Shown here one piece after another: positions 9,177 through 64,000 of a stretch of DNA of 64,000 nt. Origin of the DNA: Symbiodinium natans (lineage: Eukaryota > Sar > Dinophyceae > Suessiales > Symbiodiniaceae); contig CAJNDS010002634.1 in the NCBI GenBank assembly GCA_905221605.1, forward strand, positions 2,069,077 through 2,133,076. The letters run 5' to 3'. The notes under the pieces were generated by a model. That model searched no databases. It saw only the letters and a program-made list of their open reading frames with translations, and was not told where the DNA came from. How positions within the stretch are numbered: the stretch's first letter is position 1; every line of letters starts with the position of its first letter. Position numbers and translations under genes: made by a program.

Positions 9177-9273
9177 GATGTCCCCCCTTATACTAGCAGT
9201 CCGTGATAGGGACTAGAATAGGGGGGGGGGTACCAGAGTCCTTATTCAGGACTGCTAGTATAGGGGGGGAACA
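9177..9273. mobile_element. MITE-like element, same family as 18994-19103
   Basis: Arms of about 26 nt (GATGTCCCCCCTTATACTAG and its complement) with a G-rich loop. The second family member at 18994 has the same arm sequence. Confidence 0.75.
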
Positions 9274-21179: not shown

Positions 21180-22200
21180 AGATGCGAACCAATCCAATCA
21201 GACATTTGTTCTCACATAACGATATTTGGAATCGTTGGTTCTTTTGCTTACTTCTTATGATCCTGTTTGTGTCTTGGGGTTGCGATCGGGGTTGTCGCTT
21301 CAAGAATCCCCAGAGTAGAACACTCTTGCACGAAGCAGTTGATTCCACCCGCAAACCCTACAAACCCTAAACCCCATGCTTGATATAGCGCCGCCCCGCA
21401 CACATTGTCGGGTCGGATACCGGCGTGCTTGTAGAATCTGCTCCGAGCCTCGATCATGTCGCATGAACTTCGATCCACCCTGACAGGGGTTTAGGGGCTA
21501 GGGTGTAGGGCGTAGGGTTCAGGGTTTAGGGTGTACGGTTTAGGGTTCAGGATTTAGGGTTTAGGGTGGTGGAAGGCTCTTAAGCTTAAAAGTCTCATCT
21601 CATTCGTGGCATTGCTGAGCGCTGTTGCCTTTTGTCGGTCCCAGCTGCATAGGAACAACTTCCTCCCGCTTACCATGCAATAGGGTTTAGGATTCTTGCG
21701 GTCTGTTCAAATAGGGTTTAGGGTTTAGGGTTTAATTAGGGTTCTTGAGGCTAGGGACCTGCTGCCTGTTCATTGCGTTGGCCATTTCGGGGGATGTCTG
21801 GGAGTCTTTGCAACATGGCTTCACAGCGTGAGCGACCCCAGCCCACTCTACCCGAAACCCGTATAAATCCTACAAACCCGATAAACCCTAAACCCTAAAA
21901 CCCCGAAACCCTATAAAACCTATAAAGCCCGATCCCTAATCTTCCAAAAAGCGTGTGCGAATGGATGGTCTGGCGAACTTCCGGGCGCCGCCGCGGCCTT
22001 CGTTCTGGCAAGGCGTGTGTGGGTGAGGGGCTTTTGGGGTCGGGTGCTGGGTTTTGGGTTTTGGAGCTAAACAATAATACTTAGGGACATTTGGGGTTTA
22101 GGGTTTAGGGTTTAGGGTTTAGGGTTTAGGGTTTAGGGATCTAAACAATAAGTTTCGACATTTAGGGTTTTGGGGACTTGGCTTCGCGGCGGACCGTGAG
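21180..22200. repeat. Segmental duplication copy 1 (partner 33960-34960)
   Basis: Blocks at 21181-21480, 21570-21690, 21750-21800, 21950-22020 and 22140-22195 recur in the same order at 33964-34960. The spacers between blocks differ by telomere-like insertions. On the minus strand a frame (DMIEARSRFYKHAGIRPDNV) is protein-like in this copy but shifted in the other. Confidence 0.85.
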
Positions 22201-22219
22201 GACCCGGGTGGGCATTTTA

Positions 22220-23520
22220 TCATGCTTGGGTTGGTGCTTTAAGCAAATGGGATGGGAATTGGCGCTATAAGCAGATGGAAGGGGAGTTGCATGGTGCTAT
22301 ATGCAAATTGAATGGGACTTGCACGGTGCCATAAGCAAATGGAAGGGGTCTTGGGCGCTGCTCAAAGCAAATGGAATGGGACTTGAGCGGGGTCATGGGC
22401 GGTGCTATATAAGCACAGGGAAGGGGTCTTGGGGGCTGCTATATGCAGATGGACAGCGTTACAAGCAGCGGTCTGGTCTGGGGCGGTGCTATAAGCACAT
22501 GGAATGGTTGGGCGGTGCCTACAAGCAAATGAGAGGGGGTTTGGGTGGTGCCAAAGGCAAATGGAAAGGGCTTTTGACGGTGCTATAAGAAAGTGGAATG
22601 GGAGTTGGGCGGTGATGTGAGAAAATGGAATGGGAGTTGGGCGGTGCCATAGGCAGATGGAATGGGAGTTGGGCAGTGCTGAAAGGCAAATGGAAGGCGT
22701 CTGGGGCAGTGCTATAAGCAAATGGAATGGGGCGTGGGCGGTGCTACAAGCACAAGCAAATGAGAGGGGTCATGGGCGGTGCTTTACGCAGATGGAAGGG
22801 GTCTGGGTGGTGCTAGAAGCAAAAGGAATGTGACTTGTGCGGTGCTAGGAGCAAATGAGAAGGGTTATGGGCGGTGCTATCAGCAAATGGAAGTGGTCAG
22901 GGGCGGTGCTACGAGCAAATGGGAAGGGTCATGGGCAGCGCTATAAGCAAATGGAAGGGGTCTGGTCTGGGGCGGTGCTACAAGCAAATGAGAAGGGTCA
23001 TGGGCGGTGCTATAAGCAAATGGAAGGTGTCTGAGGCAGTGCTATAATAAGCAAATGGAATGGGACTTGGGCGCTACTACAAGCAAATGAGAAGGGTCAT
23101 GGGCGGTGCTGTATAAGCAGATGGAAGGGGTCCGGGGCGGTGCTACAAGCAAATGAGAAGGGTCATGGTCGATGCTATAAGCAAATGGAAGGGGTCTTGG
23201 GCGCTGGGACTTGGGCCGTGTTACAAGCATTTTTTTTGCAGCAGTGCTATAAGCAAAGGGAGAGGTCTTGGGGGGTGCTTTATGCAGATGGAATGGGATG
23301 TGGGAGGTGCTAAAAGCAAATGGAAGGGGTCTTGGCGGTGCACTAAGAAAATGGAAAGGGCTCTTGGGCAGAGCCAAAAGTAAATGGAAGGGGTCTTTGG
23401 GCGGTGCTAAAAGCAAATGGAATGGGCATGGAGCGGTGCTACATGCAAATAAACAGGGTCATGGGCGGTGCTACAAGCAAAATAAAAAAGGGTCATGGGC
23501 GGTTTGGATTTCTTTTTGGG
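22220..23520. repeat. Minisatellite, about 35 variable units of 32-40 bp
   Basis: Units follow GGGCGGTGCTATAAGCAAAT then GGAAGGGGTCTT, with unit-to-unit changes in the middle and at the end. Frames through it are open by chance. Confidence 0.9.
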
Positions 23521-23732
23521 GTTTGGGCTCCAAAGAGCTTGCGACTATGGCAAACTCCTTACTGCGAATAATCAGTTTTCGGTAAGGGCCCAAGTTTTAG
23601 CACCCCGACAAAGCCTTCCTAAACTCTTGCTATGCACACCCCGGGTCCCCAAAACCCCTAAACCCTACAAGCCTGAACGTTCAACCCACCCCCATCTGTC
23701 GGAGGTTCTAAGGATCTAAGGGGTTGCAGCAG

Positions 23733-23792
23733 GAGCTCCCCGCGAAACTGCGGGAGGGCATGGATCGCCTACACGACTTGGCGGGAGCAGGG
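23733..23792 (+). CDS. Short exon, unidentified
   Basis: Follows GGTTGCAGCAG; reads ELPAKLREGMDRLHDLAGAG and runs into GGGATTTAGGG, which would be a GA-type donor. Confidence 0.45.
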
Positions 23793-24239
23793 GATTTAGG
23801 GGTTTAGGGTTTAGGGTTTCGGGTTTAGGGTTTAGGGTGTAGGGTTTAGGGGATTTCACGCACAGAGGTGCGCGCGCCCATGGGCCTGAGATGTCTTTGC
23901 GCGAAAGAATACTGCTGTGTTGCAAAGCTTGATCTATTACAATTTCCCCTTTTCAAATGAGGTATAGACTATACCTGTGAAACACTGTTCTGATTTGGGA
24001 TCCTACAGGAAGCTCTGTCGTTTGGTTAGTTCATTGCGTGGGCAAAGACTTTTGTGAATGGTTCACACACCCAGTCGCAAGGTTCCATGTTTGAACCTTT
24101 CGTCGATTGAGGTTGATTTTTCATATGTTTGGAATTAGATAATTCAACCGATTCTCCCACATAATTCGCATGGTGGTGACTTTTCATTTTTGGGATACAG
24201 GGAATTCTGGATTTGGATTCGTTTGATTTCATGTCAGAA

Positions 24240-46219: not shown

Positions 46220-46312
46220 AAACTTGACTTTCTCGCTAGCAAGCACAACTCTAGAGCCAAAATGACGCACGAACATAGTTTATAAAACATACATGAACAA
46301 GTACATGATACG
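46220..46312. repeat. 93-bp terminal direct repeat, copy at the 3' end of element B
   Basis: Identical to 54724-54816. GCTAGCAAGCACAACT at 46235-46250 is complementary to 46324-46339, giving a 16-bp stem around most of the repeat at this end only. Confidence 0.9.
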
Positions 46313-46526
46313 TTCTATAAACTAGTTGTGCTTGCTAGCGGTATAGCCGGAGGCTTCAAAAGGCTGCGAGCTTCGCTCCACGCTTTATTTTTCTCAGGAG
46401 TGCCGGAAATCCTCACCAACGTCCACTCGAGGAAACAGCAACGATGCACAAAACAGGTTGATGGGTGGGACCATGTTACCCCAAATTAAACTACCCAGCA
46501 ACCTCGCACCGGAAAAAACCCCAAAC

Positions 46527-47144
46527 CTAAGTGAGGTTGTTCGGCACTCCCCTGCTCCGCACAGACCATGGAAGGTGAGCCCCTTCGGGGAAGACAGAAA
46601 TTTTTGGACGAGGCAACCAAAGGGCCTCGAGTGACAACCGCACTCTGTCCTTTTCAAGGCAGTCAGGGGGAACCTCATACTCAGCAGGACGAGACAAAGC
46701 ATCAGCCTTGACATTGCGTTCCCCGGAAATGTGTGACACATCCAGCGTTGTTCTATGTACAGCTGCCAGCAAAGAGATCCTTTCCAGGAAAAAACAGAGG
46801 GGCCGAGAGGTGGAGAAAGAGGCATTCACCCCTGCTTCTGCACCTGTGTTGTCTGATGCGGAACGTAGCTGCAAAGGGATTCTGGCGCAAGGTAAAAGAG
46901 AAGATGTTGCCAAAATCAGCGCCCCCTGGGCGAGCGCTTCATAGCAAGCAATATCAAGCTGCATATCCGCTTGCACGGGAATCTCAAGGGCCCTAAAGGC
47001 ACTGTAGGGAAAAGTTTCGCGAAACCAGCCCACCAATGCAGCACACCGAGCCGTGTGCACTTGCATCGGCTCGTGCCTCAAAGGATGCGTTGCCTTGAGG
47101 GCGCATGCTGCAAAATGGGCACACATGCAAAAGCCAGTGTTCAA
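46527..47144 (-). CDS. RNase H domain of element B
   Basis: The RNase H starts in the RT frame (ADASAHGS) and continues here after a +1 shift near 47040 (GWFRETFPYSAFRALEIPVQ). ASDNTGAEAG carries the third acidic residue; HISGERNVKADALSRP is the C-terminal signature. It degrades the RNA strand during cDNA synthesis. Confidence 0.75.
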   Translation of the reverse strand: MNTGFCMCAHFAACALKATHPLRHEPMQVHTARCAALVGWFRETFPYSAFRALEIPVQADMQLDIACYEALAQGALILATSSLLPCARIPLQLRSASDNTGAEAGVNASFSTSRPLCFFLERISLLAAVHRTTLDVSHISGERNVKADALSRPAEYEVPPDCLEKDRVRLSLEALWLPRPKISVFPEGAHLPWSVRSRGVPNNLT

Positions 47145-48711
47145 ACAAGCCTAAAATGCGTACTGATTCGGGGCTCAATTTGCGCTTTGAACTGGATTGA
47201 CTTGACACACGCATCCAAACTCGCCTGTCTGTAATGCGCACTCGATCCAAGTCAGACAATGTTGATAGATCCTGATGACGGACTGACAAAAGTGTGCTGT
47301 GGAGCGGAATTGCTGTACCTGGAGGGACCGACTTGAATTGCAGGGAATCCGTCAAGTGGTGACGAAGCTGTGGCCAAACATCTGGGGCCACCGAGTAGTT
47401 GGTAGCGGCGGGGCTGAAAAGATCATGATAGAAGGTGTACAGAAGTGACTTCATTGTCGGGAAAAGGTGCGCCGCCCAAAGAGCCAGCCCGACAAACCTC
47501 TCCAAATCCTTACGTGAAATTTTTGGATTACGCTGAAGGTCTTGAACCATCCCCAAAAGTTTTAACCGTTTCTCCTCTGCAAGCGACACAACACCGGAGG
47601 TGTAGCAGAAACACCACCCTATCCAATGAACCCGAGAGCTGACTTGAAGTTTCTTCCAACTCAAGGGTACCCCCAGTACCTGGAGGAAGAGGCAGATCAT
47701 CGCCCCTGTTGCTGGCAAGACGGCTTCCGCCTGAGAGAATAGGTAGTCGTCCACAAACAAGTGGCCTGCATGGCTGAACCAAATCAAGATGTGCAACAAC
47801 CGAAGCAGGCAGGAACCTAAGCGCCCCCACCAATGCTGCGCAAAGACCGCCCCGAATGGGGCCACGCGATAGAAGTACAAAGAATCTGCAAAAGCGAAAC
47901 CTAGGAGACCCTGCTCGGACTCCTTGACAACGCATCTTTTGTGAGCACTTTTGACATCAAGAGATATGGCAGCTTGCCGCGAGCGGGTGCCCCGAAGGGG
48001 GAAACAGTGCATCACGTCCCTAACTGATGGCATATGCTGGACTTCTGGAACGTTGCAGCTTGCATTCGTGCCACACACTGAATTATCTAAGACCAACCTT
48101 TCCGAACGATTTGGCGCACGGACCACGGAGAGCTTCCCTATTGCCAGTGTACCCGGCCATTTTGCCTTAGCTGCCTCAATGTCGCCATCAAACTTGAAAC
48201 AGAAGCCCTGATCAAGTTCCTCCTGAAGCAAGGCTTGAGTCACGGACAAATCAACTGAGGCCGAGCGCCAATTCTGCATGTGGATGGAAAGTGATACATC
48301 CTCAAGGTTCTCTTTTTGATTCGGCCAAAAACAATTTGACACTGGGATATCGTTGTTGTACCCCGTGGGGACGCCTTGCAAAAGGGATTTGCAAAGACTC
48401 ACATCCGGATCACCACAAAAACAGGCAAGTGCCTCAAGCGCATGCAGATGCAAGGGTTGATGCTCACGGACCTTCCATGTATTTGCATCTGTCGCCACAC
48501 CTAAGCAGGAGAAGAAGTCTTTGCGCGCATCTTGCACCTCCGACGCGGTGAAAAGGGGTTCGGGATTAGGCCAAGTGGCTTTAGCAAGCAGGCGTTTGGG
48601 GCCCTGCATGTCACAAACTTTCCCCAAAAGGTATGTCCGAAGATTTTTAAGCTTGTCCTGGCACAATGGGGTACTCCAATCCCCACAAGAGTGGCGACCT
48701 GCCCCACCCAC
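46993..48711 (-). CDS. Reverse transcriptase of element B, with conserved N-terminal domain
   Basis: 572 codons. Residues 20-150 form a helical domain with LLQGVPTGYNNDIPVSNC (110-127), also found in element C. RT motifs: RLVLDNSVCGTNASC (205-219), LDVKSAHKR (251-259, catalytic Asp252) and FVDDY (319-323). QGLLGFAF and APFGAVFAQHW follow the DIRS/Ngaro pattern. The first 70 residues overlap the end of the methyltransferase ORF in another frame; similarity to element C shows this frame is right from about residue 10. Confidence 0.85.
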   Translation of the reverse strand: MGGAGRHSCGDWSTPLCQDKLKNLRTYLLGKVCDMQGPKRLLAKATWPNPEPLFTASEVQDARKDFFSCLGVATDANTWKVREHQPLHLHALEALACFCGDPDVSLCKSLLQGVPTGYNNDIPVSNCFWPNQKENLEDVSLSIHMQNWRSASVDLSVTQALLQEELDQGFCFKFDGDIEAAKAKWPGTLAIGKLSVVRAPNRSERLVLDNSVCGTNASCNVPEVQHMPSVRDVMHCFPLRGTRSRQAAISLDVKSAHKRCVVKESEQGLLGFAFADSLYFYRVAPFGAVFAQHWWGRLGSCLLRLLHILIWFSHAGHLFVDDYLFSQAEAVLPATGAMICLFLQVLGVPLSWKKLQVSSRVHWIGWCFCYTSGVVSLAEEKRLKLLGMVQDLQRNPKISRKDLERFVGLALWAAHLFPTMKSLLYTFYHDLFSPAATNYSVAPDVWPQLRHHLTDSLQFKSVPPGTAIPLHSTLLSVRHQDLSTLSDLDRVRITDRRVWMRVSSQSSSKRKLSPESVRILGLFEHWLLHVCPFCSMRPQGNASFEARADASAHGSVCCIGGLVSRNFSLQCL

Positions 48712-49760
48712 GGTCCAACATCCAGGGCCTTGACAGGTACTAAAGCCGACGCGGTGGCAATAGTGTGTTCAATCTGTGCACCTGCAAGAAGCGGCCTGAT
48801 GTGCAACGCGAATTCTTCAGCCAGGCATTGAGGGTACTTAGCCGTCTTACGACTTTTGAACGAGCCATCACTCTCACGTCCCTGCACGGACTCATGTGCA
48901 TTGCGTCCGTGTTGACACGTCTGGCCCATCACGGACAGGGCTTGAAAGCTCGATGCAAACAACCAAGTTTTTGCCCAGTTCTCCCCAAATGCACAGGCCG
49001 GGAGGACAATGAGGGCTGTGGACCCACAGTGCAACCAGCCTTGAACGCACGATTCATCCCAGGACATAGCACCTGAAGGTTGCTCCAAATGGCCATGGCC
49101 CCCGGCCCCATGGACTGCTTGAAGACATTTGCACGCCCTGAAAAGCATCTCGTGACTTGTTTGTATACGAGCCTGAGCTGATGGGGGTAGATTCTCCAGG
49201 CCCCCTAGCTGGGTTGGTGTGCGGATGGCAAAGGGCGGACCTCCAAAGAGTTTCAGGCGGGAGTATTCCGAGCAGCAAGGGGATGCCGCACAATACCCCA
49301 CAACACCTGAGCCACAGATGAACAAGAGCTGCTCGAAAAAGGTATTATCGAGAATGTCCATGCTGCTATCCAACAGGAAATCAACTGCAAGTGTTGGGAA
49401 GCCTAACTCCTGCACCGCTGAAGATAGAGGCTTCTCCGCGCCCGAACAAATGTCCAGGAAGATTCTTGAAGACTGCTGCAGCGCTGATTGAACTATGGCA
49501 GGCGAGGATGGTGGTGGGCGAGGTATTTGGGGCTGCAAGATCAAGCTGTGGTGAGCAAACCCTTTTGGAGAAGGCTTTCCCCAATTAACCCCGGAGCTAG
49601 GAACTGCCTGCTGAGTAGGAGGGCAATGGGCGGGTGTGGGAACCGGTGCTGGGGGCACGGTTCGTGGCTGGGGCCAAGGGAACCCCAAATCCCTAAGTGG
49701 ATCACCTGACACGCCTGGGAGGGTAAAGGCCGTCAGCACCCATCTATCGCCAAATGCCAA
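48501..49760 (-). CDS. Cytosine-C5 methyltransferase-like domain of element B
   Basis: 419 codons; the last 70 are a shadow of RT sequence. FLDICSGAEKPLSSA (101-115) resembles SAM-binding motif I, and a DFLLD follows. AASPCCSEYSRLK (158-170) is in the place of the catalytic PPCxxYS loop, with Pro-Cys-Cys instead of Pro-Pro-Cys. LEQPSGAMSW (225-234) is in the place of the ENV/ENP motif. CAFGENWAKTWLFAS (256-270) recalls the late C..G..W.K.T segment. Retroelement-borne cytosine methyltransferases are known from dinoflagellates and some algae. Whether this one is active is doubtful given the altered loop. Confidence 0.55.
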   Translation of the reverse strand: MAFGDRWVLTAFTLPGVSGDPLRDLGFPWPQPRTVPPAPVPTPAHCPPTQQAVPSSGVNWGKPSPKGFAHHSLILQPQIPRPPPSSPAIVQSALQQSSRIFLDICSGAEKPLSSAVQELGFPTLAVDFLLDSSMDILDNTFFEQLLFICGSGVVGYCAASPCCSEYSRLKLFGGPPFAIRTPTQLGGLENLPPSAQARIQTSHEMLFRACKCLQAVHGAGGHGHLEQPSGAMSWDESCVQGWLHCGSTALIVLPACAFGENWAKTWLFASSFQALSVMGQTCQHGRNAHESVQGRESDGSFKSRKTAKYPQCLAEEFALHIRPLLAGAQIEHTIATASALVPVKALDVGPWVGQVATLVGIGVPHCARTSLKIFGHTFWGKFVTCRAPNACLLKPLGLIPNPFSPRRRCKMRAKTSSPA

Positions 49761-50641
49761 AGGTGCACGGGGAACTTAAATGGCGCGTGATGCGTTGTGA
49801 CGATCTTGCCAGGGAGAGTCACCCCAAGCTTGGGGATGAACTGCGGCACAGTGCCTGCTTGATCCTCAACCCAAAGGCCTCCATCCGAGTACGAACCTAT
49901 ACCCACTGTCAAGTTTGATGACCCCGGCAAATTTGCTGTGTCCTTGTGCGGGGACGTCAAGATGTTCCTGCTGACACACAAGGCATTCCAAGTCTCACCT
50001 GGGAACAGTTGGCACAGGAAACCATTAAGGCTTGCACACAATTGTGGGAGTGCATCTGTAACTGATGAGTGGGCCGAAGGATTCCCTAGGCGCACCCCAA
50101 AGTTCCAGTATCCTGATTCCCCCGGAGCCGCTGAAGTAACGCTCCTGGCAGGAAGCACGCGTGGAGGCCAAGAGGCTGAAAGCAATGCCTGAAGACAGGA
50201 CTTAAAGTCGTGTATGCATGAAGAACCTTCTTCTGCGACATGTGTAACACCCACCTGCCCGGGTGTTACCGCACCCCTGGAACGACCAGGTGTGTTGCAC
50301 GTGACATCACCCAACACGGGTTGTGACGGGATGTTGCCCTGAGGACATTGCAGTGCTGGCGACGACACAGGCCCAGCGTTTGTCTCCAACAAGGAGACCG
50401 ATTTCGGAATCACATTTACAGGCTCGGCTGGCCGAGCTGCCGGCTGGATATCATACCCAGCAACACGATTTGCACCTGCCTGGTGCTTTGCTGAAAGAGG
50501 CTGTTGAGGTGATACTGACATACAAGGCGACGAAGGGTGTGACTGAACTGGCTCAGTGTGAGCTTGCAAAAGATGCGGGGCATCTGGGGGTGATACCTCT
50601 GTAGACTGCGAATCTGAATTCGGGAATTTTTGCCACGGCAC
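49733..50641 (-). CDS. 2-oxoglutarate/Fe(II) oxygenase-like domain of element B
   Basis: 302 codons after a non-ATG start; the frame is continuous with gag except for one TGA (50659-50657). Residues 1-140 are Pro/Ser-rich and probably unstructured. From about 175 on: YWNFGVRLGNPSAH, then CVSRNILTSPHKDTANLPGS (H232 and D234 as a possible HxD iron site), TVGIGSYSDGGLWVED and KIVTTHHAPFKFPVHLWHL with candidate distal His. The N...PHxD..N...G.(Y/F).GG pattern resembles the TET/JBP family, which oxidises DNA methyl groups. Dinoflagellates contain hydroxymethyluracil, so the match would be apt. Pattern-based only. Confidence 0.5.
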   Translation of the reverse strand: MPWQKFPNSDSQSTEVSPPDAPHLLQAHTEPVQSHPSSPCMSVSPQQPLSAKHQAGANRVAGYDIQPAARPAEPVNVIPKSVSLLETNAGPVSSPALQCPQGNIPSQPVLGDVTCNTPGRSRGAVTPGQVGVTHVAEEGSSCIHDFKSCLQALLSASWPPRVLPARSVTSAAPGESGYWNFGVRLGNPSAHSSVTDALPQLCASLNGFLCQLFPGETWNALCVSRNILTSPHKDTANLPGSSNLTVGIGSYSDGGLWVEDQAGTVPQFIPKLGVTLPGKIVTTHHAPFKFPVHLWHLAIDGC

Positions 50642-50656: not shown

Positions 50657-51862
50657 TCAGTGAGGCGTCTGCTCATGCTGAGAGGCTGTGTGCGACTTGC
50701 TCCCGCACGCTGATCCATCCTGCTTGGGGTATGCACATGCATGAACAAAGGGGCAGGAGCCTCCCCTTGTGCAGCGGCCAATCTGCCACTGGACACACAG
50801 CCCTTTCTTCTCAGATCCCACTTGGATCTCTTTCACGAAGGTGATGTGTCTCCCTGGAGCGCCCTTGGGCTTACCGCCCTTTTCCTTGCCCCGGCCCTTG
50901 CCTAGGCCTTTCCATTGACCAACCTGCTTGCCCTTGCCTTTGAGATCAGGGCCGCGGGGGATGAACAAGGCTTTCGGACGAGCCTGCAGCAAGGTGCTAA
51001 GCTCACCTCTGATTTCAGTGAACTCATGCAACGCGTCATTCAAGCTCCAAGCTTTCTCACTGACTAAAGAATGGATGCTCTGCCAAATCCGACAATCTGC
51101 CTGTTGCGCTTCTAGGATTGTCGGTGCACGCAGTCCTGATGCTGGGTCGAAACGCTGGGACACAAGCTGGACAAACTTGCAGCTATAGGCTTTGAGGCGG
51201 GCAAGGTGAGCTGAGCCAACCATGGCTAACGCAACGTCATGCACTGCCAAGATCCGCTGGATACCACTGATCCCCATATTGGCATCGGTCACTTCGATTG
51301 TAGGCGGATCATCAAGGAGCAAGCTGGAAAGACCCAGCATTTCGAGCTTGGGCTGTTTGTGGGGTCGGGCAATCAACAACTCCGAAGCTTTCTCTTCCGT
51401 CATGCGATGTTTCCAAGCTATCCATTTATACTCCGAACGTGCCTCTTGATGGGCTGCGAGGGAAATCAGCCTCAAAGAGGGTAGAGTAGATGGATTCAAG
51501 ACCTCACTTGGGTAATTTGCAAGGAATTGGCGCTTCATGTCGGACAGCTTCGTGGATGCAATTTTGGGAGCAAAACTCTCTACCCATGTCTCCAAAGTAG
51601 GATCTGCGTTGACTGGGGCCGGTAGAGCACTAGAGGAACTGGATGCTTGCATGCCCGCCCACGCTGCTTTGATTTGGGCTATCTGCAACCGAGACAAAAT
51701 CTGACCTGGGAAGATCTCGGGGAGGGCTCCCTCAACTTCTGCCTGGGTTTCAACGACGTGTTTGAAAGCCGAGGCTGTCCAGCCCCGTGGCCACTTTGAT
51801 GACCTCTGCTGCCAAGCCTTCCTTCGCCAGTGCACTCTCCAACTCGGAGTCAGCCATGTCAA
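50657..51862 (-). CDS. Gag-like protein of element B with CCCH zinc finger
   Basis: 401 codons. Mostly helical, with a Lys/Gly-rich segment (GKGKQVGQWKGLGKGRGKEK) before a CCCH finger LCVQWQIGRCTRGGSCPFVH (C-x7-C-x5-C-x3-H) and a second Cys/His pair (CGSKSH). It is likely the RNA-binding particle protein. It ends at a TGA followed in the same frame by the oxygenase region. Confidence 0.6.
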   Translation of the reverse strand: MTWLTPSWRVHWRRKAWQQRSSKWPRGWTASAFKHVVETQAEVEGALPEIFPGQILSRLQIAQIKAAWAGMQASSSSSALPAPVNADPTLETWVESFAPKIASTKLSDMKRQFLANYPSEVLNPSTLPSLRLISLAAHQEARSEYKWIAWKHRMTEEKASELLIARPHKQPKLEMLGLSSLLLDDPPTIEVTDANMGISGIQRILAVHDVALAMVGSAHLARLKAYSCKFVQLVSQRFDPASGLRAPTILEAQQADCRIWQSIHSLVSEKAWSLNDALHEFTEIRGELSTLLQARPKALFIPRGPDLKGKGKQVGQWKGLGKGRGKEKGGKPKGAPGRHITFVKEIQVGSEKKGLCVQWQIGRCTRGGSCPFVHACAYPKQDGSACGSKSHTASQHEQTPH

Positions 51863-52228
51863 GCAAAGATAACGCAGGGCTAATGTTGGTGTTTAGCGCT
51901 AGAACAATACTTGATACCTAGATAGGATGATAGAGCTTTGTTCTCGTGAGCTAGATGATCATGCTAAGCAACAAATCTGAAATGTACGAAACTTCCAGGG
52001 CGTCGCCTGACCACCACGTGAAACCCTTGCAAGACGCAACGTCCCTAAAGATCTTTCCCTTGGGGATTTGCTAGCCCAATCGAGCGCCTGCCTGCAGAAA
52101 CACCCAGAGCATGTCAAGATCATAGCAGCAATCTAACCCTTGGTGAACATGTGCAACATGACAGCCTGCTGTTTCACTGATGCATACGCAAAACAACAAC
52201 CACACTTTTCTGACACGAACATTGAAGC
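51863..52228. other. Spacer between recombinase and gag in element B
   Basis: About 366 nt, less G+C-rich than the ORFs, no frame of interest. It may hold an internal promoter or 5' leader of gag. Confidence 0.35.
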
Positions 52229-53236
52229 TCACTCCTCGGAACAACAAGATAAAGCTGCCAAGCATGCACCGCGTCTGCACAACCGACACGAAGATGGCAC
52301 TGACGTGTGGATCATGAGCCGATCGGCCGGAAGAGTGGCACCACACTTTGCACGCATATATGTGCCATTGACAAGTGTGCCTGACAAAGCATCTGAAGGG
52401 CAGAGCACATGCAACACCGCGGTGCAGGAGCCCAGCAAGAATTCATCGGGTTCACCTAGGTTGTGCTCTTCGGCCGGGGGTGCCGAAGGTTCCTCCTCGC
52501 TCTCATCTGAAGATCCTGGGTCAGAGTGATACACGAGATCTTTGTCCAGCGCCTCTATGTCTGGATCAGGGGTGACTAATTGATTTTCTGCGACCTCCCA
52601 ACTCCCATTACTGCTTTGAAGCAAATCATCACTGCCATCAAGTTGAAACGAGAACCACTGGAAGGGTTCAAACTCGTAGTCCTTAGAGAAAGCTTCCGGT
52701 GGAACGTACGCTGGCGTCAAGGGCTGCTGCCCCCCTCTGTGCTGGGGGACCAAAAATCGGAAGCCTGTGCGGATGCTATCACGAATGCAAGATTGGCACC
52801 GAAGCATGCCATGAACATCGTCACGGGAATAAAGAGCGGAGCTGCTTATGCGGTGGTGCCCTTGACGTTTCCTATCAACCTCATCAACATTGACTTGAAG
52901 GGACATGGAAAGCATAGTGGCTTTGAGACTATGCACTGTGAAATTGAGGGGCGGTACCTCTGGTGGAGAGGACGCCCAAGGCATGAGGAGAAAATGCCTC
53001 AACCACCTCAGCGCCTCAGCATAGCTCATAGCTTGCAGGGGGAACATGAAGCTTTCGCCTTGCACTGCTGGAAGTAAGAACGATGGAAGCCACGATTCTG
53101 TGTGGTTTCGAACATGCATTGAAACAAGCCTGTCAAGGGCATGCAGCTGACCCAAGAATGCGTCCCGCGAGACAGAATACCTGACGCAAGGATGCCCCAG
53201 GGCTGCCCGGTGTGACATGTTTTGGTCGCATAACAC
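52229..53236 (-). CDS. Tyrosine recombinase of element B, C-terminal half
   Basis: 335 codons. FTVHSLKATMLSM (H102, K105) is the HxxR/K box, RQGHHR (H127/H128) the second box, and SSSALYSRDDV (Y136) the nucleophile. These follow a -1 frame change from the N-terminal half near 53215. Residues 150-335 are a tail rich in Glu/Asp/Ser (GSSDESEEEPSAPPAEEH) and end with Cys-rich sequence of unknown role. Confidence 0.75.
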   Translation of the reverse strand: MLCDQNMSHRAALGHPCVRYSVSRDAFLGQLHALDRLVSMHVRNHTESWLPSFLLPAVQGESFMFPLQAMSYAEALRWLRHFLLMPWASSPPEVPPLNFTVHSLKATMLSMSLQVNVDEVDRKRQGHHRISSSALYSRDDVHGMLRCQSCIRDSIRTGFRFLVPQHRGGQQPLTPAYVPPEAFSKDYEFEPFQWFSFQLDGSDDLLQSSNGSWEVAENQLVTPDPDIEALDKDLVYHSDPGSSDESEEEPSAPPAEEHNLGEPDEFLLGSCTAVLHVLCPSDALSGTLVNGTYMRAKCGATLPADRLMIHTSVPSSCRLCRRGACLAALSCCSEE

Positions 53237-54237
53237 GTACCACGAAGGACATGCAAGTCAAAAGATAATGAACTCCACTCCACGCGTTGAAGATCTGCAA
53301 ATCGCAATGAACCCCAGGCAGCAACCAAAAAACCACCAAGCACAACCACTTCAAGAAGTGACGCCTGCTTCATCAAGATGCGCCTTTCCCACAGCTGAAG
53401 CACCCAAGTGGGTAGTGGGAAACTCTCACGGCGTTCACGAGGAATTTTTGACTTCAGAAAGGAACCAATCACTTTTTCGTACGCGCACGATAAGATTGTA
53501 CATTCTGCGACTTTGCATAGCCAACGAAGTGCTTTGATTGTCATGCAACAGCTTGAACCCAGAGTAGGGTCTCCATGCTTCTCAAGGGACATGGTGACTA
53601 GTATGTCTGCCATCATAACACTATCAAGATTGCCAAAACAGAGGCCTAGCCCTTCAAGGTTCGCCACAAAGTGTGACCAAGCTGCCAGGTAACGGAGCAC
53701 CGTGTTCGTGGCATACCCGGAAAGAATCCGCGAGGTGTGATGACTGGCAAATTCGGAGCACTGGATCTGCTTGAACAATCCACTACAATCACCCATAAAA
53801 ACAAGAACACCCCAAAATAGTGACAAGGCCATCTGGGAGAAACCTGCAATCTGCTGGAACTTGGGATGGTGGGGATCGGCCGCCTTTGCGGGCTTTCGCT
53901 TCGAGACAGCTTTCAAGAGGAACGATGAAGTACTCTGCTGCTGTTGGTTGGACTCTACAGAGAACTGCCGAAACCTGGCAAAGTGCCTGGCTGATTCTTC
54001 TTCAGCATCAGAATCACAATCGCTCCTGCTGGACGTTGCAATTGGCAATAGGAACAGGCAGAGGTTGCCCGGCACGTGGAACTGGCTCAATGTGTCGTCC
54101 CTGGGAGTACAAAGGTTGGGCAAGACCTGCCGACGGCAGAGGGGGAGCGGTTCCTTTAGGTTTGTCAACTGGTAGCGCAAGCCCCCCCAGGGGTGGTGGT
54201 GCACACTTGCTCTTTGCCTTACTGAAATGCTTATCAT
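53026..54237 (-). CDS. Tyrosine recombinase of element B, N-terminal half
   Basis: 403 codons. Residues 170-270 form a SAM-like core-binding domain (GYATNTVLRYLAAWSHFVAN). AAWGSLRFADLQRVEW carries the catalytic Arg312 and LRGTCYATKT the beta-hairpin Lys339. After about residue 345 the frame is wrong and the real protein continues in the 52229-53236 frame. The enzyme would join element circles into the genome without target duplication. Confidence 0.8.
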   Translation of the reverse strand: MISISVRQRASVHHHPWGGLRYQLTNLKEPLPLCRRQVLPNLCTPRDDTLSQFHVPGNLCLFLLPIATSSRSDCDSDAEEESARHFARFRQFSVESNQQQQSTSSFLLKAVSKRKPAKAADPHHPKFQQIAGFSQMALSLFWGVLVFMGDCSGLFKQIQCSEFASHHTSRILSGYATNTVLRYLAAWSHFVANLEGLGLCFGNLDSVMMADILVTMSLEKHGDPTLGSSCCMTIKALRWLCKVAECTILSCAYEKVIGSFLKSKIPRERRESFPLPTWVLQLWERRILMKQASLLEVVVLGGFLVAAWGSLRFADLQRVEWSSLSFDLHVLRGTCYATKTCHTGQPWGILASGILSRGTHSWVSCMPLTGLFQCMFETTQNRGFHRSYFQQCKAKASCSPCKL

Positions 54238-54270
54238 CAGGATCCGTCGGGCGTTTCATCCTACAACCCT

Positions 54271-54576
54271 CTAGTCTTCAATCAAGCTTTGCCAAAAACC
54301 TGGAGGCCTTGGGAAGCTGGTCTGAACTGCACGCACAAGAAAGCTGAAGCAACTCTCAAGGTGCAAGAGCCGAACAGAAAGGCAGCCGATGCTACTGGTG
54401 CCAGTATGGCCGCGCAGATCCCGACGGACCCTCTGATCTTCCTGCTCGATGCGATGCACACGCTCTTCCAAGACTGCAATGTGTGTGTGAAGGGCTTCCA
54501 ACTGGCTCTGCAACTCGTGAACTCGAAGCTGCAACTGATCTGAAGAGGCGTCAAGCCCAGCACACGATGCTTCCAT
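54271..54576 (-). CDS. Small coiled-coil ORF at the 5' end of element B
   Basis: 101 codons, ATG start, ending 34 nt before the recombinase. Heptads run through LRVHELQSQLEALHTHIAVL and EERVHRIEQEDQRVRRDL. Possibly an N-terminal extension of the recombinase polyprotein or a separate oligomerising protein. Confidence 0.5.
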   Translation of the reverse strand: MEASCAGLDASSDQLQLRVHELQSQLEALHTHIAVLEERVHRIEQEDQRVRRDLRGHTGTSSIGCLSVRLLHLESCFSFLVRAVQTSFPRPPGFWQSLIED

Positions 54577-54723: not shown

Positions 54724-54816
54724 AAACTTGACTTTCTCGCTAGCAAGCACAACTCTAGAGCCAAAATGACGCACGAACATAGTTTATAAAACATACATGA
54801 ACAAGTACATGATACG
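54724..54816. repeat. 93-bp terminal direct repeat, copy at the 5' end of element B
   Basis: Identical to 46220-46312; adjoins the truncated Copia-like fragment. Confidence 0.9.
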
Positions 54817-55310: not shown

Positions 55311-55440
55311 TAAAGATCGTTTTCAAATTATCTCAAGTAAGTGACCTACTGGTGTCCTGAAACACGGGGACTGAGTGGAGCTTGATCCCTGGGGATCACA
55401 TAGTGCAACACCTTCTCCACTAGGCATGCCTTGCATTGAG
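55250..55440. repeat. Duplicated 60-bp block in Copia-like fragment
   Basis: GACTGAGTGGAGCTTGATCC and the following 40 nt occur at 55254-55310 and 55370-55428 with seven or so differences. Confidence 0.8.
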
Positions 55441-56246
55441 CCTCGAACACGATTCATGGCTCCACCGGTGGCACTGCAACTCAAGCCTTTCGCCTCGCTT
55501 TGACTCAGCAAGCGGATGGAACCTTGTGCACAAAACGACTGATGCCTGTACCCAATCGGAATGCTCGTACTTGCATCCGTCAAGCAAATGCCTTCACACT
55601 CAGGCTTCACGAACCATCCAGCTTTTGCAAGCTTACCTAGGCAAACCAAAGGACTGGTAACCCCTGATACCACGAACCTCTCGTAGAACTTCAGTGGTCC
55701 TATGGTGACTTCAGCAATCCTCGTGTCTTGCACGCGTAGGGGATGACCCTGTGCATCAGTGTACTGGACGGATCGGGCATGGGGATCAGACACTCCTGCA
55801 TTGGCGAAGGACAAGGGAAGAGCAGAGACATCTGCTCCAGAGTCCAGTATGATGTCCACATTCCCTGACTGCAACACCTCAGGCACTTCTCGCACATGCT
55901 GATGCTGACACGTCAACATGCGAATTGCATAATCATCGGGCCAGTAGCCTGCTGCCACCTCATCTTGCATTCCGGACTCAAGATCACCCTCTGAAAGGTC
56001 ATAAATCGTGAGATTCACTCGATCATCGTCATCCATGGTGTAGGCTTGTGTGCCGGAGAACGACACTCTCCGGACTGCGGCACTCTTGGCATTGGGATTC
56101 AAGGACGCTTGACTCAGGGCATTCAAGGACGATTGACTCGGGGCATTCACGTGGGAGCTCGAAGAAGATGCAGCTTCAGCTTGGGCGATTTGCTTTAGCT
56201 GGGGGCAATCACGCTTCCAGTGGCCGGATTGACCACAGTGCAGGCA
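55323..56246 (-). CDS. Zinc knuckle and retroviral-type aspartic protease, Copia-like
   Basis: The CCHC knuckle CLHCGQSGHWKRDC (C-x2-C-x4-H-x4-C) is at 56246-56205, preceded in the same frame by a Gly/Lys-rich linker that runs back to about 56455. Counting from the Met at 56150, the protease active site is DIILDSGADVSALP (D103-S104-G105), and VTSPLVCLGKL fits the flap-side strand. The knuckle and linker are out of frame with gag by -1. Confidence 0.8.
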   Translation of the reverse strand, partial: CLHCGQSGHWKRDCPQLKQIAQAEAASSSSSHVNAPSQSSLNALSQASLNPNAKSAAVRRVSFSGTQAYTMDDDDRVNLTIYDLSEGDLESGMQDEVAAGYWPDDYAIRMLTCQHQHVREVPEVLQSGNVDIILDSGADVSALPLSFANAGVSDPHARSVQYTDAQGHPLRVQDTRIAEVTIGPLKFYERFVVSGVTSPLVCLGKLAKAGWFVKPECEGICLTDASTSIPIGYRHQSFCAQGSIRLLSQSEAKGLSCSATGGAMNRVRGSMQGMPSGEGVALCDPQGSSSTQSPCFRTPVGHLLEII

Positions 56247-57565
56247 TGCGTCACGACCTTTGCCTTGGCCTGGTCCACCTGATGCACCCTGCTTACCCCC
56301 ACTTTTCTTACCCTTCTTAACTCCCTTAGGCCCTCCTTGACCCTTTTGGTGGTCCTTGCCTCCTCGTTTGCCTGCACCCCATTGACCCCTGCCACCTTTG
56401 CTGCCTCTGCCCTTTTTGCCATTTTTACCATCTCCATACTTGCCGCGCTTACCATCTTACCACGTTTGCCACCCTTAGTCTCTTCATTAACCCGACTTAT
56501 GTCCATTGGCGCTGGACCATTCGGATCAGCTGCATTGCTGGTTCCCAGCTCAAGGTGAACCCTGCTGTTCGACCAGGTGGTGGTCACGGACTCGTAATTC
56601 ATCACGGCCTCACGTATGGTGTCATATGATGAAGATTCAGTCATTTGCAGCTGTATGTGTTGACGCAGGTGATTGGGCAACACACGCACAAGCACACCCA
56701 TCTGCACGTCAGCACCTATTGCTGATCCAGATACCTTACGGTACTCATCCGACACCCTTTCTAGAGCATTGACCTGCTCTCGGAAGCTTTTGTCTTTGGT
56801 GAAGGCTGGATATGACATGTAGGCACTAAGGAGTGCCAGGCTGCGTGCACGTGTGCGTGGGGCGTATACTGACTGCAGCTGCCTCCACAGCTCGAAGCCG
56901 TTCTGCTCAGGTATGGATCTTAATATGACAAGCGGGCGACCCTTGAGCAACCCTGAAAGGATCGCGTAAAGGCGTCGGGCACGGGGCTTGGTTGACTCAA
57001 CCATGTCAGCGATGGTCACCACCACATGCGGACTGGTCTCTATGGTGGCTAGCTCCTCACCGTATTCAGGTTCTGCATAGATAAGCCATGATTTGAAGGA
57101 ATGAGCGAACTCTTGCCATTTTGCAACGTCACTCTCATGTGAATCATTTCCCCCAAAACCTTCAGGATAACGCAACACCTTTGATGCATCACTGTAGCCT
57201 GCAAACTGTCTGTCACTCGCGGCACGCTGTGTGGCGGATGACATTTGCTGCACCGCCTGTGCTGCACTATGCGCTGCCTGGCTGGCCGTTTGGATCAATG
57301 CAGCGACCTGACTCGGATCTGCGAGAACTACTTGGGGCTGTCCTTGCTGCACACCATCACTCGCTCCAATCTGGTGCATCTGAACATCTGGACCTGCTCC
57401 GGTCGGTGCGCCTGCTTCTGCTACGGTCTGACCTTGACCTGCAAGTTGGGCTTGTTGCTGGGCTTGCTGGGCTTGGTGGGCTGCCTGCTGCTGGGCAGCG
57501 TGCATTGCGGCTTGAGGATCCATTGTAGGAATGCTCGGACTTAGGGTGTGTAGGGGCTTCGGCAC
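56195..57565 (-). CDS. Gag capsid-like protein, Copia-like
   Basis: 456 codons, the last 85 in the wrong frame. The N terminus is Gln/Ala-rich (MHAAQQQAAHQAQQAQQQAQ). The capsid-like core includes FELWRQLQSVYAPRTRARSL, typical of Copia UBN2 gag. The better start may be the Met at residue 15 (MDPQAA). Frame change near 56448-56462. Confidence 0.75.
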   Translation of the reverse strand: MPKPLHTLSPSIPTMDPQAAMHAAQQQAAHQAQQAQQQAQLAGQGQTVAEAGAPTGAGPDVQMHQIGASDGVQQGQPQVVLADPSQVAALIQTASQAAHSAAQAVQQMSSATQRAASDRQFAGYSDASKVLRYPEGFGGNDSHESDVAKWQEFAHSFKSWLIYAEPEYGEELATIETSPHVVVTIADMVESTKPRARRLYAILSGLLKGRPLVILRSIPEQNGFELWRQLQSVYAPRTRARSLALLSAYMSYPAFTKDKSFREQVNALERVSDEYRKVSGSAIGADVQMGVLVRVLPNHLRQHIQLQMTESSSYDTIREAVMNYESVTTTWSNSRVHLELGTSNAADPNGPAPMDISRVNEETKGGKRGKMVSAASMEMVKMAKRAEAAKVAGVNGVQANEEARTTKRVKEGLRELRRVRKVGVSRVHQVDQAKAKVVTHACTVVNPATGSVIAPS

Positions 57566-58307: not shown

Positions 58308-59081
58308 CTACCAAAACACATGTGGCCCAACGTGTAAAACGGGTGCACCAAAATGTGCCCATGTAGCTATGTACCAACTTTTGCAGAAAGACATCTCAGC
58401 CACTGAGGCCACCTGAAAACCCAAAAGGTCGTCCACGTATAGGGCTTGGAAATGCGCGATGTAAATCAGGAGGTGCAAAGTACGAACCAAGAATGCACCC
58501 AGTCGCGCAAACCAATACGCCGAAAAGGCCGCCCCAAAGGGGCAAACAGAATAGAAGAAGAATGTATTGCCCACACGCACTCCAAGCAGGCCTTGTTCAG
58601 ATCGGCGAACTCGAATGGATTTGTGCGCGGCTTTTACATCCAGTGACCATGCAGCAATTTGCTGCCTCAGGCCCCGTAGTGGCCAAGCGGACAGAATGGA
58701 CTGTAAGGTTGGCAATGCACTTCGTTCTGGGATTGAGCAGGCGGCGTTCGTACCACAAATGGAAGAATCTACCACCAGTCGAGGGTCCCTGCCTTCAGAA
58801 TGGACGATGTTCATCTTGCCCACAGCGACCTGTGGAAAAAGCCGCTTCGCCTCATCAAGCGACTCAACTTTGTGCAACCAGCCCTTGTCAACCTCCTGTT
58901 GGACCAGTCGATCCAGAAGGACTGGATCGTCTTCGGCACTGCCAGTTCTCCTGGCAGACTTGCAATGACTCGTCCGTACCAGCTTTGCCTGACTGCGCCA
59001 TGCATCCCGACGGTGGTATGTCGTTTTTGAAGCCAGTCGGGACACCATGCAACAAACAGCTAAATAATGTAGTGTCCACAT
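58308..59081 (-). CDS. Reverse transcriptase fragment, element C
   Basis: DPRLVVDSSICGTNAACSIP, LDVKAAHK (motif A) and YVDDLL (motif C) align with element B. The reading frame is right from about 58955. The last 20 codons are not RT. Confidence 0.8.
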   Translation of the reverse strand: MWTLHYLAVCCMVSRLASKTTYHRRDAWRSQAKLVRTSHCKSARRTGSAEDDPVLLDRLVQQEVDKGWLHKVESLDEAKRLFPQVAVGKMNIVHSEGRDPRLVVDSSICGTNAACSIPERSALPTLQSILSAWPLRGLRQQIAAWSLDVKAAHKSIRVRRSEQGLLGVRVGNTFFFYSVCPFGAAFSAYWFARLGAFLVRTLHLLIYIAHFQALYVDDLLGFQVASVAEMSFCKSWYIATWAHFGAPVLHVGPHVFW

Positions 59082-60114
59082 CCTGCAGGAAATGACTTAA
59101 TGAAGCGAGTGCATGCAGGCAGTATGGCTGGCCTTCTGGAATGCTCCAATCGACCTTTCCCATGTTCTCCGAGGAGAACCAAGCTGACAACTCGTCTCGC
59201 AGCTCCTGCGCCTCTTGCTCTGAAAACAATGGAGAATCTGACTTTGTCCGCAAATGTTCGCGCAAGCGCGAAAGAATAAGCTTCTTTCCACAAAATGACA
59301 ATGTATGGCGCAACATTTTGAGAACATTGCTGCGACCCTTTGCCGGGCCGCTCCAATCTGGGTCCCGGTTGCTCTGCAGACCCCCACCATCTACCCAAGC
59401 GTGGGGAGCTGCTTCTAGCTCTTTCACCGGAATACATGCCCATGCACTCTCGACCGACGCACCGCCCCGAGACTGGGATTTCGAAAACCCCATGCTGCGA
59501 AGCAAATTGCAAAGCGAAGCCTGCAGCTTCGGAGGGTATGCCAGTGATTTAAACTGCAATGTACAACCACGTCGCATGCAAATTTCGCCAAAGCTGGCGA
59601 AAGCCTCGGAAGTTGTGACAAACAGCCATGCAGGTCCACAAGGCTCACCAAAGGCGCAAGGTGGTATCGACCCAATGCATCGTAGAAAAGATGATACAGA
59701 ATGTTTGAAAAGGGGGGCATCCCAGCATGATGACCACGCTAAGACATCCACCACCACATGTGCACCTGAATAGAAACTGACATGGCACAAATGCAAAGCC
59801 CACTCAATAGCAGACTGAGGCCACATACAATGAACTCGCGCCATGACAAAAGGGAAAACACCCTCCGCTGCCGCCCGAAAGACCAGATCCTTAACACCAC
59901 TTTGCCCCACCGGATCAAACTTGACGAATGGCAAGGCCTCCGCGTCCAGTGCCTGAGCAGCAGACAAAACCGACTCGGTGAGGGAGCCAATAAAACTTGA
60001 ATCCCGAGTTCTGGCCATAAAAAAAGTTGAAGCTTTTAAGCTTTTTTTTTCAAAGGTTGCTACTGGGCTTAATACAGCTGTCAGACTAGCAAGATAAAAA
60101 CACATGTTGCACAT
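58888..60114 (-). CDS. Element C N-terminal region: methyltransferase-like remnant and GVPTG domain
   Basis: 408 codons. IPPCAFGEPCGPAWLFVTTS aligns with the CAFGENWAKTWLFAS segment of element B; GASVESAWACIPVKELEAAP and LFSCLLHGVPTGFKNDIPPS align with the region before RT. Upstream motifs I and IV are not recognisable here. Frame changes to the RT frame near 58955 (+1). Confidence 0.6.
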   Translation of the reverse strand: MCNMCFYLASLTAVLSPVATFEKKSLKASTFFMARTRDSSFIGSLTESVLSAAQALDAEALPFVKFDPVGQSGVKDLVFRAAAEGVFPFVMARVHCMWPQSAIEWALHLCHVSFYSGAHVVVDVLAWSSCWDAPLFKHSVSSFLRCIGSIPPCAFGEPCGPAWLFVTTSEAFASFGEICMRRGCTLQFKSLAYPPKLQASLCNLLRSMGFSKSQSRGGASVESAWACIPVKELEAAPHAWVDGGGLQSNRDPDWSGPAKGRSNVLKMLRHTLSFCGKKLILSRLREHLRTKSDSPLFSEQEAQELRDELSAWFSSENMGKVDWSIPEGQPYCLHALASLSHFLQDVDTTLFSCLLHGVPTGFKNDIPPSGCMAQSGKAGTDESLQVCQENWQCRRRSSPSGSTGPTGG

Positions 60115-60407
60115 GCAGAGTTACTTGAAGCTGCAAAGAACCCTTTTTGCAAAGCAGCGGCTGGCAATTGTAAGCTTGCACGAAATAAGGAGTAACAGGT
60201 CTGACACAACACAGTGACATTGACGGTGAAACTTGGTCTGACTTAGGAACTTGCCTGGCAAAGCCTTGACGGGAATGTTGCCTAGCAGAATCTTGTCGTA
60301 CTGTTAGGAGCAGACAATCATCCGCGCTGCACTCACTCATCAGTGGCCTTAGAAACTGCAGCAAACTCAGGCAATGATGTGACGTTCAAAAAACCAGGAC
60401 AAGGGGG
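60115..60407. other. Spacer, nothing recognised
   Basis: No protein-like frame or repeat seen between element C and the satellite. Confidence 0.3.
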
Positions 60408-62611: not shown

Positions 62612-62823
62612 CTTACCGCTTGTTCCAAATTGGGTTTGAACCCAAAAGCCAAAAGCCTAACATGGAGACTCGCAAGACACAAAGCAGGCGCTGCATGCCA
62701 CTCACATTTTTTCATCAGTGGGCGAATCATTAATCACATCCTGTCACGTGCCGGTGCACACAACGCGGTGCACATACATTGCACATGCGTCTCACCATAC
62801 CCTAGCGAACCTCAAGCCCCCTT
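62612..62823. repeat. 212-bp direct repeat, proximal copy, at the 3' end of element D
   Basis: Contains the stop codon of the element D ORF (TGA at 62812-62814 on the minus strand). Confidence 0.95.
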
Positions 62824-63975
62824 ATTAGCCGACAGTCCAAGGCAGATGGCATCCAGGTGCTCCGACACGTCGGAACACGGGACACTGATGCCACCCCACA
62901 GCAAGTGCTGGGACACCAGCCTTGACGGGTGATCTGCGCAGTTCGACGGGGAAGGGACGCGCGAGAACCAAGGGATGAACTCGCACCCAACTTCCAAGCC
63001 CACAAACATTTTAAGCAGATTTTTCACTATTGGGGACCTGCCCCGACAGGAAATTAAAATATCCCTGACTGCATTGTTGTCGACGAAAGCCACAACAGGT
63101 GAGCGCGCAACCCTTTTGCCCCAAAGGCGGAACGCAAGCAGCACCGCAACAAACTCCGCCTCCATTATAATTGTGTCCTTGTTAAGCTCACCTAGGAGCT
63201 TGCGGGCATCACTGCCAAGGGCGTGAGAGAAGCCAGCAACCAACACACCCTTGTCATCAAACAGGAGACCGCCCACGCCACAAGGCAGTACGGGGTCGTC
63301 CTTCGAGTAGGATGCATCAGTGAAGACATACCAGGTTTGCTGCTTGCTAACCTGGACTAGCCGAGGACGGCCGCTTTCCAACATGTCGACTAGAGAGCTG
63401 AAAGTGTCGATGCACTCAGCCGGCAGATCGGGAGGGGCACAACCGTGGGCATACTCCGAGAGCTGTTGCAAGCAAAATTTGCTCTGGCGTCCAAACAGCT
63501 GTCCACTTGCAAACTGAAGTTGGCCTCTCAGCTTGAGAGCTTGAGGCACACTCATACGCCGGTCCTTCTGGGCCTGCTTCATTGTCTCAACGAGGAGCTG
63601 AACTCTCTTTTCCGTATTGCAAATAGTCACACGACCCAAGTGGGCACTCGATAGCACTATGTCAACTCCTAATGCACAAAAGGCTTCAGCAAACGGTACA
63701 TCCTTCTTTCCACCCTGGGCCAGGTCCCATCCCAACAGGGTGAAGAGCAAGGTGATTGTTTGGTGCACATTGGCCACCTGTGTGCCTTTAGCAACCGACA
63801 CGAAGTCATCAAAGTAGTGGGACCAGCAAAGGGCGAAAAAGAACGCGCCAAGATGCCATATCGAGTTAACGGTTCTCAGAAAAGTCGACACCGACTTGAC
63901 TGCCCCGAAAGGGAGGGCATGTAGCTGGAACACTACTACCCTCTTCAGGTCAGGATCCCACAGTCCAATGTACAA
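62812..63975 (-). CDS. RT palm and RNase H of element D, partial at right edge
   Basis: 387 codons; the N terminus lies beyond the window. QLHALPFGAVKSVSTFLRTV and HYFDDFVSVAKG (catalytic FDD) are RT motifs B and C. RNase H has WYVFTDASYSKDD, MEAEFVAVLLAFRLWG, AFVDNNAVRD and RVPSPSNCADHPSR, with the acidic residues in place. It differs from elements B and C and no frame change is seen, so this is the most intact coding sequence among the retroelements. Confidence 0.85.
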   Translation of the reverse strand: MYIGLWDPDLKRVVVFQLHALPFGAVKSVSTFLRTVNSIWHLGAFFFALCWSHYFDDFVSVAKGTQVANVHQTITLLFTLLGWDLAQGGKKDVPFAEAFCALGVDIVLSSAHLGRVTICNTEKRVQLLVETMKQAQKDRRMSVPQALKLRGQLQFASGQLFGRQSKFCLQQLSEYAHGCAPPDLPAECIDTFSSLVDMLESGRPRLVQVSKQQTWYVFTDASYSKDDPVLPCGVGGLLFDDKGVLVAGFSHALGSDARKLLGELNKDTIIMEAEFVAVLLAFRLWGKRVARSPVVAFVDNNAVRDILISCRGRSPIVKNLLKMFVGLEVGCEFIPWFSRVPSPSNCADHPSRLVSQHLLWGGISVPCSDVSEHLDAICLGLSANKGA

Positions 63976-64000
63976 GGCCCAGGCCCCTGTAGGGTCCAGA

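Follow-up and report, generated by a model that had tools for sequence, protein, structure and literature searches.

Here we describe a broken copy of a tyrosine recombinase (YR) retroelement on the minus strand of a 64,000-nucleotide stretch of the Symbiodinium natans genome (contig CAJNDS010002634.1, positions 2,069,077 to 2,133,076; hereafter the window), whose pol polyprotein begins with a predicted iron(II)/2-oxoglutarate (2OG) oxygenase domain. The domain lies in a 302-amino-acid (aa) open reading frame (ORF) at 49733-50641, where the plus strand is dense with stop codons, and this ORF represents the first part of the broken polyprotein. The residues H232, D234 and the distal H296 were all found by a sequence check, and the frame breaks just 3' of the distal His, placing the 2OG-binding Arg in another frame. 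Thus the ORF and residues singled out by the initial annotation are real and lie on the minus strand, and the copy that carries them is not intact. The intact pol of another locus, L009, aligns to 50656-49748 in one frame and from 49754 in another. Further frame breaks interrupt the recombinase-like ORF, gag, the interval between the methyltransferase-like domain and the reverse transcriptase (RT), and the RNase H-like domain. A 3906-base stretch of contig C250 (L001) is identical to the window copy, frame break included, and is either a recent duplication or an assembly duplicate. Four annotated S. natans proteins match the query, three at 94-100% and one at 72%, covering 11-76%.

The plan of the element can be read from the open copy L009, which is 94.5% identical to the window across 8967 alignment columns (Table 1). 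Split direct repeats in the A-coding-B-A-B order of YR elements (DIRS order) are complete in L010 (minus strand; A at 9455-9555 and 925-1025, B at 1025-1197 and 390-562), and L009 has the same arrangement, its last B being truncated where the locus stops; in the window A1, B1 and A2 are present, and a B2 copy was not found within it. By our own reading of their alignment, the recombinase-like ORFs share K, HxxK/R, G[HYR][HW] and Y in six of six cases and the first Arg in five (Asp in L012); in sequence, L018 does not match the other five significantly and L015 matches them only weakly, and searches of these ORFs in Pfam and PDB returned no recombinase family. The RT family PF00078 is matched by L012 above the cut-off (E 1e-8) and by L011 (4e-5) and L018 (0.011) below it; it is unmatched by L009 and L010, which belong to the window subfamily and in which RT was assigned by alignment to L011, L012 and L018. 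The RNase H-like domain was also recognised by alignment and has no Pfam match, and a Pfam search of the window ORFs gave none for oxygenase, methyltransferase, RT or recombinase. The oxygenase opens pol, preceding the methyltransferase-like domain, RT and RNase H.

A single in-frame TGA separates gag and pol in all six YR loci of the 10-kb set that have a whole upstream ORF (L009, L010, L011, L012, L015 and L018). The ORFs before this TGA comprise 402-559 open codons, close copies agree with each other, and in broken copies a stop is reached sooner. Compared with the oxygenase domain of L009, those of L011, L012, L015 and L018 show 33-47% identity. A UGA at the gag/pol boundary is known in Tca2 of Candida (PMC2194720), and the gag-pol TGA is possibly a site of programmed readthrough.

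A tblastn search of the 759-Mb assembly containing the window returned at least 132 matches to the oxygenase domain at E<=0.001 (the scoring covered 130 of the 1371 first-look candidates), a number far beyond chance. Residues were counted in 55 of the 132 matches, corresponding to 48 loci at 47 distinct places (L003 coincides with L009; L002 is the window copy, to which L001 is identical) and to 51 aligned segments; each count takes in only the segments covering that position, the remainder being gaps, including the Arg of L001 and L002. The first His is kept in 47 of 48 segments (Arg in L044), the Asp, the Asn at Asp+3 and the distal His in 48 of 48 each, and the 2OG-binding Arg after the distal His in 45 of 46 (Met in L024). 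Among 20 diverse loci taken from the 132 matches, HxD and the distal His are present in all and the Arg in 19. A structure model of an intact copy (predicted local distance difference test, pLDDT, 89.8) forms a double-stranded beta helix; its Foldseek matches 1-8 are all the fungal DNA oxygenase CcTet, and the folds of CcTet and AlkB both match the model, whose fold is AlkB-like. As modelled, the domain is an iron(II)/2OG oxygenase. The initial annotation had proposed a 2OG-Fe(II) oxygenase from its HxD core, and this proposal is supported by the predicted beta helix, by the matches in Foldseek and fold comparison, and by the conserved metal- and 2OG-binding residues. Neither outcome that the annotation named as refuting, a fold other than a beta helix or HxD residues that vary freely among copies, was obtained.

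The ratio of nonsynonymous to synonymous substitution rates (dN/dS) between L009 and L010 is 0.087 for the oxygenase, 0.042 for the methyltransferase-like domain, 0.046 for RT and 0.045 for RNase H, compared with 0.79 for the 141-residue spacer before the oxygenase. The corresponding domain values for L012 and L013 are 0.166, 0.144, 0.056 and 0.074, and L016 against L019 gave 0.115; L021 and L022 are too close for an estimate (one change of each kind), and dS is saturated between most families. The oxygenase is under purifying selection, far tighter than the spacer and looser than RT.

The split repeats and the recombinase-like ORF uphold the initial placement of the domain in a YR retroelement, which was nevertheless too narrow, the domain being found in Copia-type polyproteins as well. 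Seven of the 20 loci (L009-L013, L015 and L018) are YR-type pol ORFs with a methyltransferase-like domain and RT, and 12 were counted as Copia-type. Ten of these 12 were scanned as far as each locus reaches, and RVT_2 is matched by each of them (by eight above the cut-off, by L016 and L022 below it); L019 and L021 were classed as Copia-type by the closeness of their oxygenase domains to those of L016 and L022, not by scan. In Copia-type ORFs the oxygenase precedes an integrase or gag-pre-integrase match (L017, L023, L025 and L026), precedes RT in ORFs that gave no integrase match (L020, L022 and L028), or follows RT (L016 and L027). In L014 it precedes RT and follows a very weak integrase match (E 0.18), possibly a third place for the domain in Copia-type ORFs. 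A Tpt1/KptA (RNA 2'-phosphotransferase-like) domain follows the oxygenase in L027 (E 5.8e-21) and, below the cut-off, in L016 (9.2e-5). Oxygenases of the Met type occur in small ORFs (about 220 aa) including P0009, P0010 and P0012, and form protein clusters with as many as 45 members; the one in L024, the remaining locus of the 20, is preceded by an ORF with an integrase match below the cut-off and an ORF with a weak Peptidase_S74 match. In a tree of 26 domains, with good support for only 7 of its 23 inner branches, the YR, Copia and small-ORF types change three times (minimum two), below the number for shuffled labels; branches are long, and near-copies favour such clustering. A single clade for the YR or the Copia type is not rejected (approximately unbiased test, p 0.32 and 0.33). 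The tree suggests an old family with few exchanges between element types.

Table 1. Features of the window copy and of related loci (window positions count from its first letter; iE, independent E value)
Feature	Locus	Position	Strand	Evidence or remark
A1 repeat of split direct repeats, element 5' end	Window	54724..54816	-	93 bp, 100% identical to 46220-46312
Tyrosine-recombinase-like ORF, in pieces in different frames	Window	52232..54277	-	tblastn with intact 682-aa L009 ORF: 54277-54023, 54048-53146, 53146-52232
Gag-like ORF, C-terminal CCCH zinc finger, one frame break near start	Window	50660..51878	-	zf_CCCH_4 E 1.2e-4, below cut-off; pieces 84 and 99% identical to L009 gag
In-frame TGA, gag-like ORF/pol boundary	Window	50657..50659	-	Sequence
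2OG-Fe(II) oxygenase domain (predicted), TET/JBP-like	Window	49751..50233	-	Profile match iE 6e-54, model positions 2-166 of 204
Oxygenase metal residues	Window	H232 49946-49948; D234 49940-49942; distal H296 49754-49756	-	Residues checked
Methyltransferase-like domain, SPCCSEYSR as in L009 and L010	Window	48711..49466	-	Profile match iE 1e-124, positions 1-257 of 257
Reverse transcriptase, FVDDY	Window	47608..48216	-	Profile match iE 7e-104
RNase H-like domain, frame-split	Window	46695..47091	-	Profile positions 1-26 and 32-142, two frames
B1 repeat	Window	46447..46483	-	94.6% identical to L009 9234-9270, itself repeated at L009 9865-9901
A2 repeat	Window	46220..46312	-	100% identical to A1; L009 similarity runs on to 45924
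A1 repeat	L009	844-935		
Recombinase-like ORF, 682 aa	L009	1376-3421		
Gag-like ORF with CCCH finger, then one in-frame TGA	L009	3773-5002		
Pol ORF, 1394 aa	L009	5006-9187		
Pol domains	L009	Residues: oxygenase 142-334; methyltransferase-like 403-654; RT 823-1025; RNase H-like 1198-1339		
B1, A2 and B2 repeats	L009	B1 9234-9270; A2 9406-9497; B2 from 9865		B2 cut by locus end
Copia-type polyproteins, ~3000 aa, with Tpt1/KptA-like domain	L027; L016	292-9102; 364-9420	+	Pfam
Oxygenase ORF, 223 aa, Met for Arg	L024	4665-5333	-	

Elsewhere on the minus strand of the window, a second YR element remnant (58311-60120) consists of a methyltransferase-like piece and RT with no oxygenase match, a further RT-like ORF (62815-63999) runs off the window end, and ORFs for a Copia-type gag and aspartyl protease (55326-57565; matches below cut-offs) stand beside the YR element. 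The interval 22001-24000 has a strong GC skew of 0.38.

Within this fold, a TET/JBP-like affiliation is favoured over an AlkB-like one and is not proven. Tet_JBP is the sole 2OG family listed by Pfam for the 20 members and is matched by five of them at E<=10; the best match has E 2e-4 and scores 21.1 bits, the curated cut-off being 34.9. Several results weigh against this affiliation. All Tet_JBP matches fall below the curated cut-off, two of the five are near-copies (L021 and L022), and the window's own subfamily has no Tet_JBP match in Pfam; a PDB sequence profile search reached CcTet at E 1.8, ranked below a chance match, and the fold comparison scores of TET and AlkB tie and cannot separate the two. 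An Arg replaces the first metal-binding His in the open 1336-aa frame of L044 (G000:C257:47429-49458), the small-ORF subfamily has Met at the position of the 2OG-binding Arg, and the Asn at Asp+3 corresponds to Gly331 in CcTet. As the curated cut-off was missed, we therefore term the domain TET/JBP-like and do not file it as a member of the family; taken as a whole, the interpretation in the initial annotation is partly supported.

Identity with CcTet and Naegleria Tet is 13-16% in alignments, and human TET2 and JBP are absent among the matches listed in the structure comparisons. A single-sequence PDB search and a tblastn search of the L023 domain against phages gave no match. In the HMMER alignment, Gly331 and Asp337 of CcTet align with two Asn of the family, one invariant and one nearly so; given the Asn in place of Gly331, base reading would therefore differ from that of CcTet. 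Human TET2 has an Asn contacting the base at the position of Gly331. The two aligned Asn would be consistent with base recognition by an enzyme of TET-like type, and do not distinguish 5-methylcytosine (5mC) from thymine.

An AlkB-like demethylase of RNA (or of alkylated bases), which would protect the element RNA as in orchid Ty3/Gypsy elements, is the foremost of the alternatives, and we consider it unlikely. Fold comparison gives AlkB, ALKBH3, ALKBH5 and FTO scores equal to those of the TETs, a retroelement has an RNA stage, and a Gypsy-encoded AlkB with in vitro N6-methyladenosine (m6A) demethylase activity is known (PMC9289625). However, the second Arg of the AlkB signature RxxxxxR, which follows the distal His as defined in PMC544882, is present in none of the 19 sequences that have the first, the residue at R+6 being always Tyr or Phe. 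Pfam lists no AlkB family for 20 or 36 members, in searches whose HMMER filters drop most matches above E 0.1. The distal His and the Arg are separated by 9 residues (10 in L014), whereas this spacing is longer in AlkB.

Quite improbable is a single two-step modification, in which the methyltransferase would methylate cytosine and the oxygenase would convert the methyl group to hydroxymethyl or a further oxidised mark. The methyltransferase-like domain, correctly noted at the outset beside the oxygenase in the same polyprotein, accompanies it in all seven YR-type pol ORFs among the 20 loci and in two orders (oxygenase first in six, methyltransferase first in L018), and both domains are under purifying selection. 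By our own reading, its SPPCxxYSR motif resembles the catalytic PPC of C5 methyltransferases; PPC is present in five of the seven, and all seven share the last Cys of xPxC. On the other hand, the window subfamily has SPCC, the domain lacks a good Pfam match (best MTS, E 0.054, in one of seven; PF00145 in none of seven), and its structure model is too poor for use (pLDDT 47.6). Moreover, ten of the 12 Copia-type oxygenase loci have no methyltransferase-profile match, the other two being L014 (same ORF, iE 7e-10) and L028 (weak, in the ORF before, iE 3e-5). SYK kinase, the sole PDB profile match of the domain, was judged a chance match. A 2OG oxygenase modifying protein or tRNA rather than DNA is hardly credible: Foldseek places a gibberellin oxidase, LH3 (a lysyl hydroxylase) and aspartate beta-hydroxylase at the lower ranks 20, 32 and 44, but the best matches in both structure comparisons are nucleic-acid oxygenases, and the domain shares its polyprotein with RT and RNase H.

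The best explanation of the whole, which we hold to be probable with some reserve, is a TET/JBP-type Fe(II)/2OG nucleic-acid oxygenase that forms the first domain of pol and acts as follows. After translation of gag, a fraction of ribosomes would pass the in-frame UGA to make gag-pol, and the oxygenase would be carried in the particle with the methyltransferase-like domain, RT and RNase H. Following cDNA synthesis, we infer, it would oxidise the C5-methyl group of 5mC or thymine, the likeliest substrates, in the element DNA or alternatively in host DNA at the insertion site. Such oxidation may allow the element copy to escape or alter silencing by host base marks, and the putative tyrosine recombinase would then insert the element DNA. 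A more specific proposal, which is doubtful, is that the oxygenase hydroxylates thymine (possibly 5mC) in new element DNA, so that repeats would write part of their own hydroxymethyluracil by means of a domain common to YR and Copia-type elements.

We found no earlier report of such an oxygenase domain in retrotransposons, within an incomplete coverage of the literature. TET/JBP genes were described in fungal DNA transposons (KDZ, hAT, IS3EU, Helitron and others) and in no retrotransposons (Kojima 2025, PMC12730594); there as here, a TET/JBP-type oxygenase occurs in several unrelated types of mobile elements, whereas in this dinoflagellate it resides inside YR and Copia-type polyproteins. Another close known system is SymbioDIRS-Dnmt3 (de Mendoza 2018, PMC5890265), likewise a Symbiodinium YR element with A-coding-B-A-B repeats, a methyltransferase and RT in pol in two domain orders, and a separate recombinase ORF. 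Its DNMTs, described as cytosine methyltransferases, were counted as PF00145, unlike the methyltransferase-like domains of the present elements, and 'TET' and 'dioxygenase' do not occur in the main text of that paper. The Ty3/Gypsy elements of Phalaenopsis have similarly acquired a 2OG oxygenase, but theirs is an AlkB m6A RNA demethylase encoded in an additional ORF (PMC9289625), whereas the domain described here is TET/JBP-like and has no RxxxxxR. CcTet and Naegleria Tet, both of solved structure, share its fold and, by the description of their families, the metal triad, and differ in being cellular proteins.

Hydroxymethyluracil takes the place of as much as 70% of the thymidine in dinoflagellate DNA, and TET-family enzymes have been suggested as its likely makers in general (reviewed in PMC6723414); in Breviolum it is enriched over repeats (Marinov 2024, PMC11071213). 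The available text of these two papers names no specific dinoflagellate enzyme for it, and 'JBP' and 'dioxygenase' have no occurrences in the latter. The large and conserved TET/JBP-like family in retroelement polyproteins offers a concrete and expressible candidate for the making of hydroxymethyluracil or the removal of 5mC. Should the domain act on DNA, these retroelements would carry an eraser or rewriter of base marks.
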